Origin: Fibrobacter sp. UWR4
Lineage (GTDB): Bacteria > Fibrobacterota > Fibrobacteria > Fibrobacterales > Fibrobacteraceae
Assembly: GCF_003149045.1 (NCBI RefSeq)
Contig: NZ_QGDU01000001.1
Span: 128,458 to 192,457, forward strand
DNA: 64,000 nt
Direction of reading: 5' to 3'
Part shown: positions 1,182-38,904 of the stretch, one piece after another
Position numbering within the stretch: position 1 is the stretch's first letter
Layout of the letters: each line of letters opens with the position of its first letter
The notes under the pieces: model-generated
Databases searched by the model: none
Told to the model about the DNA's origin: nothing
The model's input: only the letters and a program-made list of their open reading frames with translations
Position numbers and translations under genes: made by a program

Positions 1182-2305
1182 TGGCAGAACAGCCTCAACA
1201 GCAGCAGAGAACTCTTCGTATTGAACAGCTTCTCCGTGAAATGGTAAACCACAAGGCTTCTGACTTACATATTCGCGTAGGTGTTCCGCCGGTTTACCGT
1301 ATCAACGGTTCTTTGCAGAAGTTGTTTGATATTCGTGTGGATGGCATGATGATGGATTCCTTCCTGGATGATATCATGAACCGCGAACAGAAGCAGCGTT
1401 TTGAAGATAATAAGGAATGTGACTTCGCTGTGGGCGCCCGCGATATGGGACGATTCCGTGTGAACGTGTTCCGCCAGCGTGGTACTATCGCTATCGTTAT
1501 CCGTCATATTAAGGCAAAGATTCCTCCCTTCGAAGAATTGCACTTGCCCGAAGTGATTCGCGATTTGGCCCTGACCAAGCGTGGCTTGATTCTTGTGACG
1601 GGTACAACCGGTTCCGGTAAGTCCACTACACTTGCTTCCATGCTGGATTACATTAACCAGACGGAAACGGTGAATATCATTACCGTTGAAGATCCTATCG
1701 AATACCTTTACAAGGATAACAAGGCGATCATTTCCCAGCGTGAAATTGGGGTGGATACCTTGTCCTATGCAAATGCTCTTCGTGCAGCTCTCCGTCAGGA
1801 CCCTGACGTATTGCTGGTGGGCGAAATTCGTGACCTTGAAACCATGCAGATTGCCATGACTGCTGCTGATACGGGCCATATGGTGTTTGCAACCATCCAT
1901 ACCACCAATGCGACGGAAACCATTCACCGTGTGCTTTCCATGTATCCGCCTCACCAGCACGAAGAAATTCGCCTGCTTTTGGGTGAAGTTCTTGCTGGTA
2001 TTATTTCTTTGCGTTTGCTGCCCACTAAGGATGGCAATGGACGAGTTCCTGCTGCAGAAATCCTGGTGAACACGGGTGCAGTCCGCGAATACATTCAGGA
2101 CAAGGATAAGAATGACCTGATTGAACAGGCTATCGCTGATGGTCACATGCAGTATCGTAGCCAGACCTTTGACCAGGCCCTGCTGGAACTGTATGGCAAG
2201 GAACAGATCTCCCTGGAAACAGCTATGGCTGCCGCCACTAACCCGGATGACTTCGATCTTAAGATTCGCGGTATTTCTGGTACTTCCGAACGCGGCTGGA
2301 TGTAA
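1181..2305 (+). CDS. pilT: Type IV pilus retraction ATPase PilT
   Basis: Hexameric cytoplasmic ATPase that powers pilus retraction and twitching motility. The 374-residue length is normal for PilT. Visible elements, in order: N-terminal PAS-like region (ASDLHIRVGVPPVYRING), Walker A GTTGSGKST at residues 141-149, Asp box (TVEDPIEY), Walker B (DPDVLLVGEIRD, about residue 205), and His box (GHMVFATIHTTNA). It could be the paralog PilU, but the length and the N-terminal region fit PilT. The start overlaps the stop of the upstream acidic TPR-like gene by one base. A strong terminator follows. Confidence 0.95.
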   Translation: MAEQPQQQQRTLRIEQLLREMVNHKASDLHIRVGVPPVYRINGSLQKLFDIRVDGMMMDSFLDDIMNREQKQRFEDNKECDFAVGARDMGRFRVNVFRQRGTIAIVIRHIKAKIPPFEELHLPEVIRDLALTKRGLILVTGTTGSGKSTTLASMLDYINQTETVNIITVEDPIEYLYKDNKAIISQREIGVDTLSYANALRAALRQDPDVLLVGEIRDLETMQIAMTAADTGHMVFATIHTTNATETIHRVLSMYPPHQHEEIRLLLGEVLAGIISLRLLPTKDGNGRVPAAEILVNTGAVREYIQDKDKNDLIEQAIADGHMQYRSQTFDQALLELYGKEQISLETAMAAATNPDDFDLKIRGISGTSERGWM

Positions 2306-2329
2306 TTGTCCGAGGTATAGGAATAAGGA

Positions 2330-2355
2330 AAAGGCGCTCCGTTTGGAGCGCCTTT
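2330..2355. terminator. Bidirectional intrinsic terminator
   Basis: A perfect 11-bp stem (AAAGGCGCTCC / GGAGCGCCTTT) around the loop GTTT lies between the convergent ends of pilT and the coiled-coil gene. There are short T/A tracts on both sides. Confidence 0.8.
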
Positions 2356-2358
2356 CTG

Positions 2359-3198
2359 CTATCTAATTCGAGAATTCCATTTTTTCTTGAAGCGGGGCTC
2401 GTCCAGAACTTTTGCCCAGACAAAACCTCGACGGATCTCGGCCTTGTTGAAGGATCGGGTATGTCGACGATGGTCGGCATTGGAGAGGCAGGGGGCTCCG
2501 ATGGATTCGGATCCGTCATTGATTTGACCGGCCTGTTCACGCAGCTGACGGGCTCGTTCTTCCAGTTCTGCCAATTCCTGCTGGTGCTTCAGTTCGGCCT
2601 CACGGCGTGCGTGCAGTGCGGCTTCCTGGGCCTGGGCAGCCTGGAGTTCCTCAGCTTCCCGTTGTTCACGCTTGAAGAGGTTTTCCAGTTCTGTCTTGTC
2701 GTGAACCAGAAGGTCGCAGAAGCCTTCGCCCATGTCGCGACCCACGATGTGGTGGGCTTGCAACTCGGCAAGGACCTGCTGTGCCGTGCCTTCGGAGAAA
2801 CCGAAGGCCTCCTGCAAGTACTCCACAGAAACCTCTTCCCACTGGATGACCGATTCGGCGATTTCCCTGAAGGTGATTCGATTTGGATTTGCTGGAGTTA
2901 CCGTAGGTAAATCCACTTCATCCTCGTCATCTTCGTAGTCTTCGTCAAGATCTTCTATGGGTGGCGTTTCTGGCGTAAGGGTCCCTTGGGAAGCCTGACG
3001 CTGGGCTTCCTCGAATTGTCGAATCAGATCCTGCAGGCTGCCGGCTTTGCTTGGGGAACTCTGCTGGGGATTGCGCTGTTCCTGAACATCGCGCGGTTCC
3101 TTGGGTGGGACGTTCCGGTTTTCCTTTTTATTGGCAAGAACCTTCTTGATGACCACATCAAGAACGTAGATGGCAATAAGTATTACTAAACCTTCCAT
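2359..3198 (-). CDS. Membrane-anchored coiled-coil protein with FtsK-gamma-like winged helix
   Basis: A 279-residue protein. The N-terminus is one short membrane segment (MEGLVILIAIYVLDVVI), followed by a charged linker and an acidic patch (DLDEDYEDDEDEVD). Next comes a helical region (VSVEYLQEAFGFSEGTAQQVLAEL...HIVG) that resembles the winged-helix gamma domain of FtsK. A Glu/Gln/Ala-rich coiled coil (EAEELQAAQAQEAALHARR) and a basic tail (EPRFKKKWNSRIR) finish it. It is third in a minus-strand cluster after nfeD and floA, 20 bp from floA, so it may act in the same membrane domain. The FtsK-gamma resemblance is by eye only; function unknown. Confidence 0.75.
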   Translation of the reverse strand: MEGLVILIAIYVLDVVIKKVLANKKENRNVPPKEPRDVQEQRNPQQSSPSKAGSLQDLIRQFEEAQRQASQGTLTPETPPIEDLDEDYEDDEDEVDLPTVTPANPNRITFREIAESVIQWEEVSVEYLQEAFGFSEGTAQQVLAELQAHHIVGRDMGEGFCDLLVHDKTELENLFKREQREAEELQAAQAQEAALHARREAELKHQQELAELEERARQLREQAGQINDGSESIGAPCLSNADHRRHTRSFNKAEIRRGFVWAKVLDEPRFKKKWNSRIR

Positions 3199-3218
3199 AG
3201 GGATAAACCTTTGGGTGG

Positions 3219-4190
3219 TTACTTAGCTTCCGGAGCGGAACCGATTTCCTTACGCATCTGGGTATCGGCTTCGATGTTCTTCATGTTGTAGTAGTCCATG
3301 ACGCCAAGCTTACCGTCGCGAAGGGCGGTTGCCATAGCCATGGGAATCTGGGCTTCAGCTTCCACCAGCTTAGCCTTCATTTCCATGACCTTGGCCTTCA
3401 TTTCCTGTTCAGCAGCGAATGCCATGGCGCGGCGTTCTTCTGCCTTGGCCTGTGCAATCTTCTTATCAGCTTCCGCACGGTCGGTTTCCAGGATGGCGCC
3501 GATGTTCTGGCCAACGTCCACATCGGCAATATCGATGGAAAGAATTTCGAATGCAGTACCTGCGTCCAGGCCGGATGCCAGCACCTTCTTGGAAATCATG
3601 TTGGGATTTTCGAGAACTTCCTTATGGCTCTGTGCGGAACCGATGGAGGAAACGATGCCTTCGCCAACACGGGCGATAACGGTTTCTTCGCCTGCGCCAC
3701 CCACCAGCTTCTGGATGCTGGCGCGTACGGTAATACGGGTCACGGCGTGGAGCTGAATACCATCCAGAGCCACTGCGGAAACCTTCGGGGTTGTAATGAC
3801 CTTGGGGTTCACGGACATCTGCACGGCTTCCAGAACGTTACGACCGGCCAGGTCGATGGCTGCTGCTTCCTTGAAGTCCAGCTTGATGTTTGCCTTGTTG
3901 GCGGCAATCAAAGCCTGGATCACGCGGAGAACGTTACCGCGGGAAAGGTAATGGGCTTCCAGGAGGTTGGTGTCCACCGGGAGGCCTGCCTTGCAGCTGA
4001 GGATTCGTGCTTCCACGATGACCTGGGGCGGAACCTTACGGAGGCGCATACCGATGAGCTGGAAGATGCTCACGTTTGCCTTGGAGAACAATGCCTGGAG
4101 CCAGAGGCTGAAGAACTTGCCTACGAAGGCGAGAAGGACGATGACGACGATGGCGGCAATGATAATGCCTACTGTTACGAGTGTATCCAT
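3219..4190 (-). CDS. floA: Flotillin-like protein FloA
   Basis: SPFH/flotillin-like scaffold of bacterial membrane microdomains. The 323-residue length matches the FloA (YqfA) family. One N-terminal hydrophobic hairpin (residues 5-35) is followed by the family-typical segment [17 protein letters not shown], the band domain ([30 protein letters not shown]), and a C-terminal Ala/Glu coiled coil ([20 protein letters not shown]). The ATG has a GAGG ribosome-binding site on the minus strand. It lies 50 bp after the NfeD gene, the same pairing as yqeZ-yqfA in Bacillus subtilis. Confidence 0.93.
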
Positions 4191-33469: not shown

Positions 33470-33850
33470 ATGTTAAAAAGGATTTGCTTGGGATTGGCTA
33501 TGTGCGGCATGGCTCATGCAGATGAGTCTGACCTTATTATTGAATTTTTGAGGGATATGCTGGAAAAAAACAAATTTGAAAGTTATCCTTTTTTGACGGC
33601 CCATTGCTCTGGTAATTTGTTGAAAAAACTGGAAGCGGACTATGATTACGAATGTGATAATGGCCCTTGTTATGCAGTATGGAATTTTCGGGAAGGGGCC
33701 AATGATGTCTGGACTTGGAAGATTCTGGATATTAAGTTGGATGATGACGGATGGTATACGTATTCTTTTCAGGAAAATGAATTTATCGGTAAACATCGTG
33801 TTAAGGCTCGTATGGAAAACGGATCTGTAATTCTTGATGATTTGAAATGA
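33470..33850 (+). CDS. Small secreted protein of unknown function
   Basis: 126 residues with a short signal peptide (MLKRICLGLAMCGMAHA). The mature part has three Cys (HCSGN, YECDNGPCYA), which could form disulfides in the periplasm, and ends in short beta strands (WYTYSFQENEF, RVKARMENGSVILDD). It may be related to DUF3828-type periplasmic proteins, but this is weak. Confidence 0.7.
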   Translation: MLKRICLGLAMCGMAHADESDLIIEFLRDMLEKNKFESYPFLTAHCSGNLLKKLEADYDYECDNGPCYAVWNFREGANDVWTWKILDIKLDDDGWYTYSFQENEFIGKHRVKARMENGSVILDDLK

Positions 33851-33938: not shown

Positions 33939-36161
33939 ATGGTTCGTAACATTTTTAAGATGGTTGTGGCTGTTGCCTTGGCTCTTTCCGCTACGGTCTT
34001 TGTGGGCTGTAATGAAGGTGATCCTCTGGCAAACAAGGTTCACAAGGTTAGTGACCTTGGCAAGAAGAAGGTTGGGGTCCAGATTGGTAACACCGCCGAC
34101 ATTTACGCCAGCGAGTATGTTGGCGATACCAACAAGATTGATGTGGAACGCTACACCAAGTTGGCCGACGCTGTCCAGGCTCTGAAGCAGGGCAAGATTG
34201 ATGCTGTTCTTCTGGATGACCAGCCGGCAATTTACTTTGTGAAGCAGAATCCGACTCTTCGTGTTTTGGACGAAGCCTTCGTGGAAGAAACTTACGCAGG
34301 TGTCATTGCCAAGGGTAACGAAGGCCTGCTGGATACTTTCAACCTGGTGTTGAAGGAAATGCACGAGAACGGAATCTTTGATTCCCTGATGAACACTTAC
34401 ATCAACGGTACAGGTTCCTACCATTATGCTCAGAAGGTGAAGGAAGGCCCGAAGCTTGTTCTGGCTACCAACGCTCAGTTCCCGCCCTACGAATATCACG
34501 AAGGCGAATTTATCGTTGGTCTGGAAATTGAACTGGCTTACTACCTGGCCGACAAGATGGGCCGCGTGCTGGAAATCCAGGACATTGAATTTGACGCTGT
34601 GATTAACGCCGTAAGTTCCGGCAAGGCTGATTTGGGCCTGTCTGGCTTTACTGTTACGGAAGAACGGAAGAAGTCCATTAACTTCACCGACAAGCTGGTG
34701 GACAACAAGGTGGTGGTCATGGTTCGTAGCGACATCAAGGCTGACGAACTGGACAACAAGGTTTTTGCTGTTAGTGACCTTGGCAAGAAGAAGGTGGGGG
34801 TCCAGATTGGTAACACCGCCGACATTTACGCCAGCGAGTATGGTGGCGATACCAACAAGATTGATGTGGAACGTTACACCAAGTTGGCTGACGCTGTCCA
34901 GGCTCTGAAGCAGGGCAAGATTGACGCTGTTCTTTTGGATGACCAGCCGGCAATTTACTTTGTGAAGCAGAATCCGACTCTTCGTGTTTTGGACGAAGCC
35001 TTCGTGGAAGAAACTTACGCAGGTGTCATTGCCAAGGGTAACGAAGGCCTGCTGGATACTTTCAACCTGGTGTTGAAGGAAATGCACGAGAACGGAATCT
35101 TTGATTCCCTGATGAACACTTACATCAACGGTACAGGTTCCTACCATTACGCCCAGAAGGTGAAGGAAGGTCCCCATCTGGTGCTGGCCACCAACGCTCA
35201 GTTCCCGCCCTACGAATATCACGAAGGCGAATTTATCGTTGGTCTGGAAATTGAACTGGCTTACTACCTGGCCGACAAGATGGGTCGTGTGCTGGAAATC
35301 CAGGACATTGAATTTGACGCTGTGATTAACGCTGTCAGTTCCGGCAAGGCCGACCTTGGCCTTTCTGGCTTTACCGTTACGGAAGAACGGAAGAAGTCCA
35401 TTAACTTCACCGACAAGCTGGTGGACAATCGCGTGGTGGTTCTGGTCCGTACGGGCATGAAGGAAGCTTCTGAAGAATCCTTTGGAGAAAAGTTCCATAA
35501 GAACTTCATCAAGGATAACCGCTGGAAGTACATTGCCGAAGGTCTCCGCAACACCTTGATTATTGCCTTGTGCGCCGCCGCTCTGGGCATCCTGATTGGC
35601 TTCCTGGTGGCTATGGTCCGCGTAAACCATGAATTCAATGGCAAGTACAAAATCGCCAACTGGATTTGCAAGGCTTACCTTGCCGTCATTCGCGGAACCC
35701 CGATGATGGTACAGTTGTTGATCATCTACTACATCGTGTTCTCTTCTGTGAATATCAATAAGCTGCTTGTGGCCATTATTGCCTTCGGTATTAATTCCGG
35801 CGCCTACGTTTCTGAAATTATCCGCGGCGGTATCAAGGCGGTGGATCCGGGTCAGATTGAAGCTGGCCGTAGCCTTGGCCTGAAGTTCAAGACGGTGATG
35901 CTTCATGTGGTTTACCCCCAGGCTTTCAAGAACTCCTTGCCGGCGCTCACCAACGAATTTATCTCTCTCATCAAGGAAACTTCTATTTGCGGCTACATCG
36001 GCCTTACCGATTTGACCCGCGGTGGCGATATTATCCGAAGCCTTACCTACGAAGCCATGTTCCCGTTGATTTCTGTGGCTATTGTTTACTTCATCATTGT
36101 GGCAGGCCTTTCTACCTGCGTGGCTCGTCTTGAAAAGAAACTGAAGAAGAACGAGCGTTAA
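33939..36161 (+). CDS. GlnP-like fused amino-acid ABC transporter with permuted, duplicated substrate-binding halves
   Basis: A 740-residue lipoprotein/permease fusion, starting at the ATG at 33939 (signal ending TVFVGC, Cys 24). The SBP_bac_3 fold is present as halves in the order C-N-C-N. The C-terminal half ([20 protein letters not shown]...MNTYING) begins at residue 37, and the N-terminal half ([19 protein letters not shown]...VVVMVR) at 173. Both are repeated 241 residues later with about 4 substitutions. The last N-half runs straight into the membrane domain ([16 protein letters not shown]; permease EAA motif EAGRSLGL). Lactococcal GlnP has two complete binding domains before the permease. 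The next gene is its ATPase. Confidence 0.88.
34047..35454 (+). repeat. In-frame 723-bp tandem duplication inside the transporter gene
   Basis: Copy 1 starts at 34047 and copy 2 at 34770 (GTTAGTGACCTTGGCAAGAA in both). Similarity runs to about 34731 and 35454. The offset is 723 bp, exactly 241 codons. DNA and protein are nearly identical, so the duplication is recent or homogenised. Confidence 0.92.
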
Positions 36162-36171
36162 GGAGGATGTC

Positions 36172-36915
36172 ATGAGTGAAAAGCTAGTAATGATTGAAGT
36201 GAAGAACCTCTGCAAGTCCTACGGTGACAAGCAGATCTTGAAGAACATCAATGTGGAATTCCACAAGGGTGACGTGGTGGCCATTATCGGACCTTCTGGT
36301 TGCGGTAAGTCCACCTTCCTTCGTCAGTTGAATCTTTTGGAAAAGCCCACCAGCGGTGACATTCTGCTGGACGGCAAGAGCATTCTGGATAAAAAGGTTT
36401 CCAAGCCCGCGATTCGTGCCCGCGTGGGAATGGTGTTCCAGCAGTTTAATTTGTTCAAGAACATGACTGCGCTGGAAAACATCATGTTCGCTCCGGTGAA
36501 GCTTGGCTTGTTGAGCAAGGCGGAAGGTCATAAGCGTGCCCTGGAACTTTTGAAGCGTGTAGGTCTGGAAGACCGTGCCGACCATTACCCGGCTCAACTT
36601 TCCGGTGGTCAGCAGCAGCGTGTGGCTATTGCCCGCGCCACGGCTATGAATCCCGAGGCAATCCTGTTTGATGAACCCACCAGCGCTCTGGACCCTGAAA
36701 TGGTGGGCGAAGTACTGAAGATTATGAAGGACCTTGCACAGTCCGGCATGACCATGCTGGTGGTGACTCACGAAATGGGCTTTGCCCGTGAAGTGGCGAA
36801 CCGCGTGCTGTTCTTTGCCGATGGCGTCATCAAGGAACAGGGAACTCCCGCAGAAATCTTTGACAATCCCAAGGATGAACGCTTGAAGGACTTCCTGGCT
36901 GCCATCAAGAAATAA
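36172..36915 (+). CDS. glnQ: Polar amino-acid ABC transporter ATPase
   Basis: 247 residues, GlnQ/ArtP type. Walker A is GPSGCGKST at about residue 40, the Q-loop is [12 protein letters not shown], the signature is [14 protein letters not shown], Walker B is [15 protein letters not shown] and the switch is VTHEMGFA. It follows the fused binding-protein/permease gene by 10 bp with an AAGGAGG ribosome-binding site, so the pair forms a complete importer. Confidence 0.95.
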
Positions 36916-36978: not shown

Positions 36979-38904
36979 CTATTTGATTCGAATAACGGAT
37001 TGGCTGATGGCCTTTCCGTTTTTCTTTATGCGCATTAGGTAGTTGCCTGCCTGTGTGGGTTTGGATGTCAATAAATTGCCGTTCATATCGAAATACTGGA
37101 CGGAAATTCTGGCTAAATCCAAGGTGCTTTGATGCAATTGAACTATTGCTGTAGTGGAAGAATCCGCGCTGCTATCCGGTGCGGTGGAATCGTCCTTGAT
37201 TGTAATGTTAAATGCCAGAGTGGCCTGTTTGTTTCCGTAAACTAGAGCCTGCCTGAAAGTGAACTTGTCGCCTGCTTTTACCTTGCCTGGCATGTGTCCC
37301 ACCTTGGTGGTCATGGTGGAAAGATCGACGTTGGAGAAAACTATGCTAGTGCCGTTGGTATTCCAGGTTACGACAGAACCCTTGGCATCGAACCAATGAC
37401 CGGTTCCTTCGCCAGTGGTGTTGCTGTTCAACGAACTATCCGGTTCTACCGCGTAAAAACTAGCCTTGGAGGCAATTTCGCTTTCCTTGATGCCGAGAAT
37501 TTCTGCGACCTTTGAACCCTGCAAGTCGATGGAAACGGGAGCGTAGTCGTCGCTGATTGACAGGTCCGCTGTAAAGCTGATTTCCGTGATGGTCATTGGC
37601 TCGTCGGAGGAGCCCGAGTTACCGTCGTCAAAGGAAACGGTGCAGTTTCCGCCGAGACAGAAGCTTAATGTGCTTCCGTTTACGTTCACGTCGGTAAAGT
37701 TCAATCCTGTTTCTGCACCGCTATACCAGCGGATGGCGGGATAGAGTGCGTCGGAAAAAGCATTGTATGTTCCGCTAAAGAAGGCGGTGGCGCGGCTGCC
37801 GGGGGAGGGCCATTGGTCGTTTTCCGGATCGCTTGTCTTTCCCTTGGAATCCGCATGGACGATTCTCAACCCGAGCTTATTGGCAGAAGAATTCCCATCG
37901 ATAGAGAAATCGTAATGCTGCATTAAAATGCCGTTTCCCTTGAGAGTTGCATTTCGTCCGGTGTTTTTCACATAGGACCAGGCCAAGCCTTCCTTGTCGG
38001 GACGATTGGGATTCTTGAAGCGATAGCATTTTTCCCCAGCCTCCGAGGAAGCTTTTCCGATATCTTCCGCAGAAACATCAACGAAGGGAATCCAGCCCTG
38101 GTCGGCGCGGTAGAAATCGTTAATGGCGATGGGGTTCCAATCGTTGGCGCGGTTGCCCATGGTGCAGTAATCCCCATACCAGTAAAGGTCCGGCCAGCCG
38201 AAAATCATATGGCCGCATTCATGGACGAAAACGTAGATGGAAAACTTTCCCGGCATATCCGTCATCTGATGGTTTTGCAGACGAACGCCATCACGAGTTT
38301 CGTTGGACCATCCTGCGTGGGGCCAAAGTCCCTGTCCCCATGTTTGACCTTCACCTGCGTAGACGATATTGATGGCTTCCGTCACTCCGTTCTTGTCGTT
38401 GTCATAGCGGGAATAATCCACCTTTGAATCGAAGTATTCAAAGACTTCCTTTACTAGCACATCAGATCCGGAATAGCCATCCAGTCCCTCGTAATAGGAC
38501 TTTGGATATTTGGCGCGGTACCAACCAAAGACTTCATTGGTAAAGTCCAGTTGACCGTTGGAAACGTCCAGATAGTAATCTCGGACGGAACCTTTGCAAC
38601 CGTCTCGATTAAAGCCTTCCTTATTCAGCCAGTCGGAAACTTCGTCAACTGTGACGGGAGCGGGCTGGTCAGAAAAATCTACCAGCAAAGTTAGGCCGTA
38701 AATTTTTCCCTTGGGGGCGGAATAGTGGCTGACTTCCTTGGGTGGGGCGAATCTCATGTTGGATCCGCGAGAATTATCGAATTTGGTAATCGCATCTGCA
38801 GGCCAGGATTGCATGCGTTTCCCCTGGTACACGATATCTGCGAAGGCGTTTCCACACAGGGCGAGAATAAAACCGCCCGCCATCAGCTTTTTTAAACTAA
38901 CCAT
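36979..38904 (-). CDS. Secreted M6-family metalloprotease with C-terminal sorting tail
   Basis: 641 residues with a signal peptide (MVSLKKLMAGGFILALCGNAFA). The zinc site HECGH is at residues 228-232, followed by the M6-type GWPDLYWYGDYCTMG. The N-terminal LTLLVDFSDQPAPVT is also characteristic of the M6 domain. After residue 440 there is a beta-rich domain and a linker, then a C-terminal tail (VQYFDMNGNLLTSKPTQAGNYLMRIKKNG...) of the type IX secretion kind. It is probably a cell-surface or secreted peptidase. Confidence 0.9.
   Translation of the reverse strand: MVSLKKLMAGGFILALCGNAFADIVYQGKRMQSWPADAITKFDNSRGSNMRFAPPKEVSHYSAPKGKIYGLTLLVDFSDQPAPVTVDEVSDWLNKEGFNRDGCKGSVRDYYLDVSNGQLDFTNEVFGWYRAKYPKSYYEGLDGYSGSDVLVKEVFEYFDSKVDYSRYDNDKNGVTEAINIVYAGEGQTWGQGLWPHAGWSNETRDGVRLQNHQMTDMPGKFSIYVFVHECGHMIFGWPDLYWYGDYCTMGNRANDWNPIAINDFYRADQGWIPFVDVSAEDIGKASSEAGEKCYRFKNPNRPDKEGLAWSYVKNTGRNATLKGNGILMQHYDFSIDGNSSANKLGLRIVHADSKGKTSDPENDQWPSPGSRATAFFSGTYNAFSDALYPAIRWYSGAETGLNFTDVNVNGSTLSFCLGGNCTVSFDDGNSGSSDEPMTITEISFTADLSISDDYAPVSIDLQGSKVAEILGIKESEIASKASFYAVEPDSSLNSNTTGEGTGHWFDAKGSVVTWNTNGTSIVFSNVDLSTMTTKVGHMPGKVKAGDKFTFRQALVYGNKQATLAFNITIKDDSTAPDSSADSSTTAIVQLHQSTLDLARISVQYFDMNGNLLTSKPTQAGNYLMRIKKNGKAISQSVIRIK

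Follow-up and report, generated by a model that had tools for sequence, protein, structure and literature searches.

Few folds have been studied as thoroughly as that of the periplasmic binding proteins. In the E. coli glutamine-binding protein GlnBP, a large lobe (residues 5-84 and 186-224) and a small lobe (residues 90-180) meet at a hinge near residues 85-89 and 181-189 (PMC13229503). GlnPQ-type importers (GlnP; 6h30, PMC8025302) carry tandem family-3 binding domains, whose linkers are 14-19 residues long (PMC8025302), N-terminal to a GlnP-class permease, and work with a separate GlnQ-type ATPase. A gene in a 64,000-nucleotide stretch of the Fibrobacter sp. UWR4 genome (the window) shares this N-terminal fusion of binding domains to a HisMQ/GlnP permease and the adjacent GlnQ-class ATPase, but it lacks the complete N-C domains in tandem that are seen in 6h30. 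Its order is C-N-C-N-permease rather than N-C-N-C-permease, as if each domain had been opened and rejoined. The protein is homologous to the family-3 group (PF00497, type II Venus flytrap) over both domain halves, yet every unit places the C-half before the N-half instead of following the native order.

The open reading frame of this receptor-permease (33939-36161, forward strand, as are all parts of it) encodes 740 aa, with a likely ATG start at 33939 and a stop codon that ends at 36161. The predicted signal peptide (33939-34010) has a lipobox-like ATVFVGC, with the lipidated Cys expected at residue 24, and single-copy orthologs have the same pattern (e.g., LALTSC in L021). Aligned by blastp to a GlnBP reference sequence that was checked against 1ggg, the first unit covers GlnBP 99-221 and then 4-97, its C-half spanning 34032-34403 (residues 32-155; E 1e-11, also found by the C profile) and its N-half 34452-34733 (residues 172-265; E 3e-22), with a C-to-N linker of near-constant family length between them (34404-34451, residues 156-171). 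The second unit covers GlnBP 98-221 and then 5-95, with the C-half at 34752-35126 (residues 272-396; E 2e-11) and the N-half at 35178-35450 (residues 414-504; E 1e-20). From the sequence and the profile boundaries, a tether (35451-35516) leads from the lobe-2 strand of this last N-half to a type I ABC importer permease domain of the HisMQ/GlnP class (35517-36158), which matches BPD_transp_1 over residues 550-736 (Pfam E 6.8e-21), PDB 4yms_D (E 1.8e-44) and TIGR01726 above its cut-off. The binding halves match SBP_bac_3 (Pfam E 1.4e-55), and the PDB search agrees in pointing to a family-3 binding protein. Half profiles, Pfam and PDB matches thus all bear out the order C-half, N-half, C-half, N-half, permease given in the preliminary description of this DNA.

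The partner gene lies 10 nt downstream of the open reading frame (36172-36915, forward strand) and encodes a GlnQ-like ABC ATPase (PF00005), for which the best NCBIfam model is NF007027 GlnQ (E 1e-100) at 336 bits, below the equivalog cut-off of 379. Directly upstream, 33470-33850 on the forward strand encodes a 126-aa protein with a short signal-like N-terminus and no Pfam or NCBIfam match, and downstream on the opposite strand (36979-38904) is a gene for a 641-aa secreted protein with an HECGH metalloprotease-like motif.

The two binding units lie within an in-frame repeat of 241 codons, with copies at 34026-34748 and 34749-35471 that are 723 nt apart from start to start. Their likeness is far beyond chance, since 51 of 723 nucleotides and 13 of 241 residues differ, and 24 of the 37 differing codons are synonymous. 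The repeat had been described with this length and with about four residue differences; the length stands, and the figure of four is right for the body of the repeat (V61/G302, K172/H413, K257/R498 and M261/L502) but not for the whole, in which nine further differences lie at the repeat ends. The motifs TVTEERK (TEERK) and LLDDQP are present in both units.

When the unit mapping is set against the lobe limits of GlnBP, the break falls in the small lobe (lobe 2), just past its first strand, and judged from the alignments each C-N unit appears to have lost nothing essential of the family-3 domain. In GlnBP, Arg75 and Asp157 hold the carboxylate and the amino group of the amino acid, respectively. 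Of 160 permuted units, 126 retain Arg75 and 130 retain Asp157. The 34 units without the carboxylate-binding Arg include examples of one module, module b (in L057, L058, L065 and L067). AlphaFold models of one unit and of the whole mature protein had pLDDT values of 35.6 and 34.3, from shallow alignments of near-identical rows.

The relatives in Fibrobacter indicate which pair of halves forms the unit. Half order was determined with separate profiles for the C-half, the N-half and the permease. The CNCN-permease form occurs in 10 of 80 Fibrobacter genomes including the window strain, and the other nine proteins, found in the search for this order that the preliminary description had proposed, are 91-97% identical to that of the window; the architecture is therefore not an assembly accident of one genome. 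In 26 of the 80 genomes there is a version of about 499 aa, 69-74% identical to the window protein, that the profiles resolve as signal-C-N-permease with one permuted binding domain. Other forms are stand-alone C-N lipoproteins of about 280 aa, a diverged CNCN-permease, a CNCNCN-permease and CNCN without permease. Among non-redundant open frames we counted 45 CN-permease, 33 CN, 28 CNCN-permease, 7 CNCN and 3 CNCNCN-permease proteins; the same set holds 26 NC and 8 NC-permease proteins in native order, most of which belong to other families and phyla. The usual form has one C-N copy, a point that the window sequence alone does not reveal. Since the single-copy relatives also run C then N, the order is not an effect of the frame of reference, and the 26 genomes with a single C-N pair, together with the stand-alone lipoproteins, identify the unit as a permuted family-3 domain. 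Orthologs with the normal N-C-N-C order, which would have spoken against the initial reading, were sought: profile order revealed none among the Fibrobacter relatives, and all close orthologs begin with C and end with N before the permease. Only one frame, L115, has N first, and it starts at a contig edge.

Two further features point the same way. The C-to-N linker that joins the old termini is near-constant (median 9, IQR 8-11 between model ends), whereas the N-to-C spacer between units varies, and it exceeds that of native proteins both in length and in variability. In diverged multi-unit proteins both halves of one unit share relatives, and recognizable modules recur in the combinations a-b-c-permease (G058), b-c-permease (G058 and G071), a-b-permease (G007), b-permease (G014) and stand-alone a (G142). 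In these proteins the correlation of C_i pairwise identities with those of N_i is 0.93, versus 0.69 with N_(i-1), and this co-inheritance of modules, the strongest argument to be had from sequence, indicates that C-N rather than N-C is the functional and evolutionary unit.

The favored reading, to which we assign a probability of close to 0.9, is that the gene product serves as the receptor-permease subunit in a type I ABC importer of a polar amino acid, with two tandem, near-identical, permuted family-3 (PF00497) Venus-flytrap domains per chain. It draws on the order of the halves, the coverage of a full domain by each C-N unit, the single- and multi-copy relatives, the modular inheritance and the homogenization of copies, all of which can be read from the sequences, and it would have each C-N unit fold into one cleft. 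Engineered permutants of binding proteins that retain ligand binding lend support to this predicted fold (PMC6335823). The break in each domain would lie in the loop that follows the first lobe-2 strand, and a short linker would bridge the former C and N termini. With its new termini placed in lobe 2, the receptor would be anchored to the lipid and tethered to the permease through that same lobe. The importer would consist of two receptor-permease chains and two copies of the ATPase encoded at 36172. Having two identical sites on each chain would increase the occupancy of receptors close to the gate but add no new specificity.

The permuted domain was one of the three alternatives raised in the preliminary description, and the single-copy orthologs, the stand-alone proteins, the shuffling of modules and the presence of a full domain's sequence in each C-N unit favor it. 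The description also raised orphan halves or an intertwined two-site receptor, in which N1-C2 folds as a domain in native order and C1 pairs with N2 around it. Taken alone, the sequence of the duplicated protein permits this, as it does for N_i-C_(i+1) in any multi-unit protein, and N1-C2 (residues 173-397) aligns continuously to native AncQR and GlnPQ. Such pairing is nevertheless unneeded and at odds with the single CN-permease orthologs, which are without any native-order pair, and with the existence of stand-alone CN proteins. The co-inheritance of C_i and N_i and the long, variable N-to-C spacer also count against it, and C1 and N12 would remain unpaired at opposite ends of a 12-unit array (see below); we consider an intertwined receptor very improbable. 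The HisMQ/GlnP permease class is dimeric and binding proteins are known to swap domains, so one may ask instead whether C- and N-halves pair across the two chains of the permease dimer, with no monomeric permuted domain at all. CN lipoproteins that stand alone, with no permease attached, are common, though, and the C-to-N linker has the near-constant length expected within one domain, which makes a reciprocal swap, if anything, a shade less probable again. As for an assembly error or a broken gene, short-read assemblies can collapse 723-nt repeats, and the metagenome-assembled genome UBA1765 (L009) has a single-copy form that is 93% identical to the window protein. Against this stand the intact frame, the occurrence of the CNCN form in 10 genomes on contigs of up to 441 kb, a CN-permease in the complete one-contig genome G144, and arrays of diverged units that cannot be collapse artefacts, and we give an artefact hardly any weight.

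Permuted units are not restricted to Fibrobacter, and they number in the hundreds. Within the Fibrobacterota they are common, being found in four genera of the Fibrobacteraceae and in a single genus from another family, and further families of the phylum have native N-C-permease fusions. In a broad sample of other phyla the native order dominates, with C-N order in three genomes (G288, G246 and G281). An rRNA search of these three genomes gave no 16S. Most strong profile matches outside the Fibrobacterota proved to be native N-C genes matched as two swapped pieces, and a match in G353 was discarded because it joins two neighboring native genes across two stops. Among the matches listed from plasmid records there were only native-order or tandem N-C-N-C proteins. 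The phylum of G288 has strong C-N matches in 52 of 188 genomes, with open frames of up to 3252 aa, and among 20 further loci that were read there are proteins from (CN)4- to (CN)12-permease, all starting with C and ending with N-permease. The units within one array are 19-64% identical and are therefore not assembly stutters. Of the 9 arrays with at least six units, 8 show a closer correlation of C_i with N_i than with N_(i-1); the exception, L226, shows the opposite correlation (0.23 versus 0.64).

Several of these loci have unusual architectures. The 3252-aa frame of L217 (G446:C39, 3848-13603, forward strand) consists of a signal region, 12 diverged C-N units and a permease, and similar arrays of 6-8 units are found at L218-L223, L226 and L227. 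In the giant arrays L217-L230, Arg75 and an acidic residue at 157 are both kept in only 18 of 71 units, and many array units may thus bind something else or nothing. Chains that join C-N, permease and ATPase in a single-chain ABC importer were seen at L071 (G023:C21, 1925-4561, forward strand), which has an extra C-terminal part, and at L190 (G288:C6); they are 879 and 901 aa long. A permuted unit is fused to a UshA-like 5'-nucleotidase (Metallophos and 5_nucleotid_C) at L120 (G129, 1381-3687, forward strand), and in G281 (L162/L192) a stand-alone 290-aa C-N binding protein adjoins an ordinary separate permease.

How often did the permutation arise? In a tree of the re-ordered domains most permuted units fall in one clade (SH-aLRT 97). 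The window family stands beside a native protein in the free tree, but a tree constrained to place it among the permuted units is worse by only 0.55 log units (p-AU 0.495); the permease tree joins it weakly to the large permuted group (SH-aLRT 80). One origin for the window family and the large permuted clade is possible on these trees. A single origin of all permuted units including those of G281 was rejected (p-AU 0.005), which makes the G281 form an independent event and gives at least two permutations. The permuted form likely originated by permutation by duplication, in which an N-C-N-C-permease ancestor would have lost its first N-half and its last C-half.

The CNCN form of the window would be a later tandem duplication of the C-N unit. 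The window units are 95.7% identical to each other, whereas neither shares more than 89.3% identity with its counterpart in any other duplicated species, a pattern that agrees with the recent amplification or homogenization suggested at the outset. Since several species show the same within-species likeness, the copies were homogenized after speciation or re-duplicated; they were probably kept alike by gene conversion. The single-copy CN-permease of UBA1765 was considered as the ancestral state and rejected, because it nests inside the duplicated Fibrobacter clade; it may reflect unit loss or assembly collapse. The UBA1765 genome is placed in another genus (g11), where the single copy would reflect transfer, mis-binning or assembly collapse.

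Among the results considered from a search of the open-access full-text literature, there was no report of a natural circular permutant of a periplasmic binding protein, only engineered ones or unrelated uses of the terms. None of the best 60 PDB matches to the family profile is a natural permutant consisting of a single unit; the long contiguous matches among them were all tandem domains in native order, for example GlnPQ SBD1-2 and BvgS. Provisionally, then, a natural reversed-half receptor with a large family of relatives appears to be new, although engineered equivalents are already known. If the fold is confirmed, the family would amount to a natural experiment in lobe tethering, asking which lobe an ABC importer needs to have attached, and would offer an existing scaffold for biosensors in which new termini are wanted close to the hinge. 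The (CN)n arrays, with up to 12 receptors per permease chain, raise the testable question of multi-substrate import.

Comparison with described proteins places the window protein between several known designs. Its halves are homologous to E. coli GlnBP (1ggg/1wdn) and the ancestral AncQR (4zv1) over the whole domain (GlnBP 4-97 and 99-221) and keep the ligand Arg and Asp, but they are swapped, with an extra C-to-N linker and a lipoprotein and permease fusion. In the window protein the tether would start from lobe 2 rather than from lobe 1 as in GlnP-type fusions, and the domain copies are near-identical. Among engineered permutants, GltI in R-ncp-iGluSnFR1 keeps high-affinity glutamate binding (PMC6335823), and permuted halves of ribose-binding protein have been made (PMC9815098); they show that the fold can tolerate permutation and still bind, and the passages considered mention no natural counterpart. 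Those proteins are man-made and have break points other than that of the window unit.

Ionotropic glutamate receptors (GluA2 S1S2, 1ftj; sequence checked against the PDB) have the binding fold that is predicted for the window protein, and their S1/S2 junction, the site of the pore insertion, aligns with the permutation break of the window protein. The match to the glutamate-receptor S1 profile PF10613 ends at profile position 112 of 115, at residue 263. In both proteins the chain is opened after the first strand of lobe 2, and just as S1 runs into M1, the last N-half of the window protein continues into a membrane helix. The receptor order is N-half, pore, C-half, whereas the window protein has C-half, N-half and an ABC permease at the C-terminus, with no channel domain and no pore between the halves. 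A bolder possibility, which we regard as rather unlikely, is that the family-3 domain has been naturally permuted at least twice at the loop into which glutamate receptors insert their pore, that the lobe-2 tether couples lobe closure to the permease mechanically in a glutamate-receptor-like manner, and that this permits single-chain importers with 1-12 receptor domains of differing specificity. Should the fold be confirmed, the window family would in any case provide a parallel to the way in which glutamate receptors opened the same domain.
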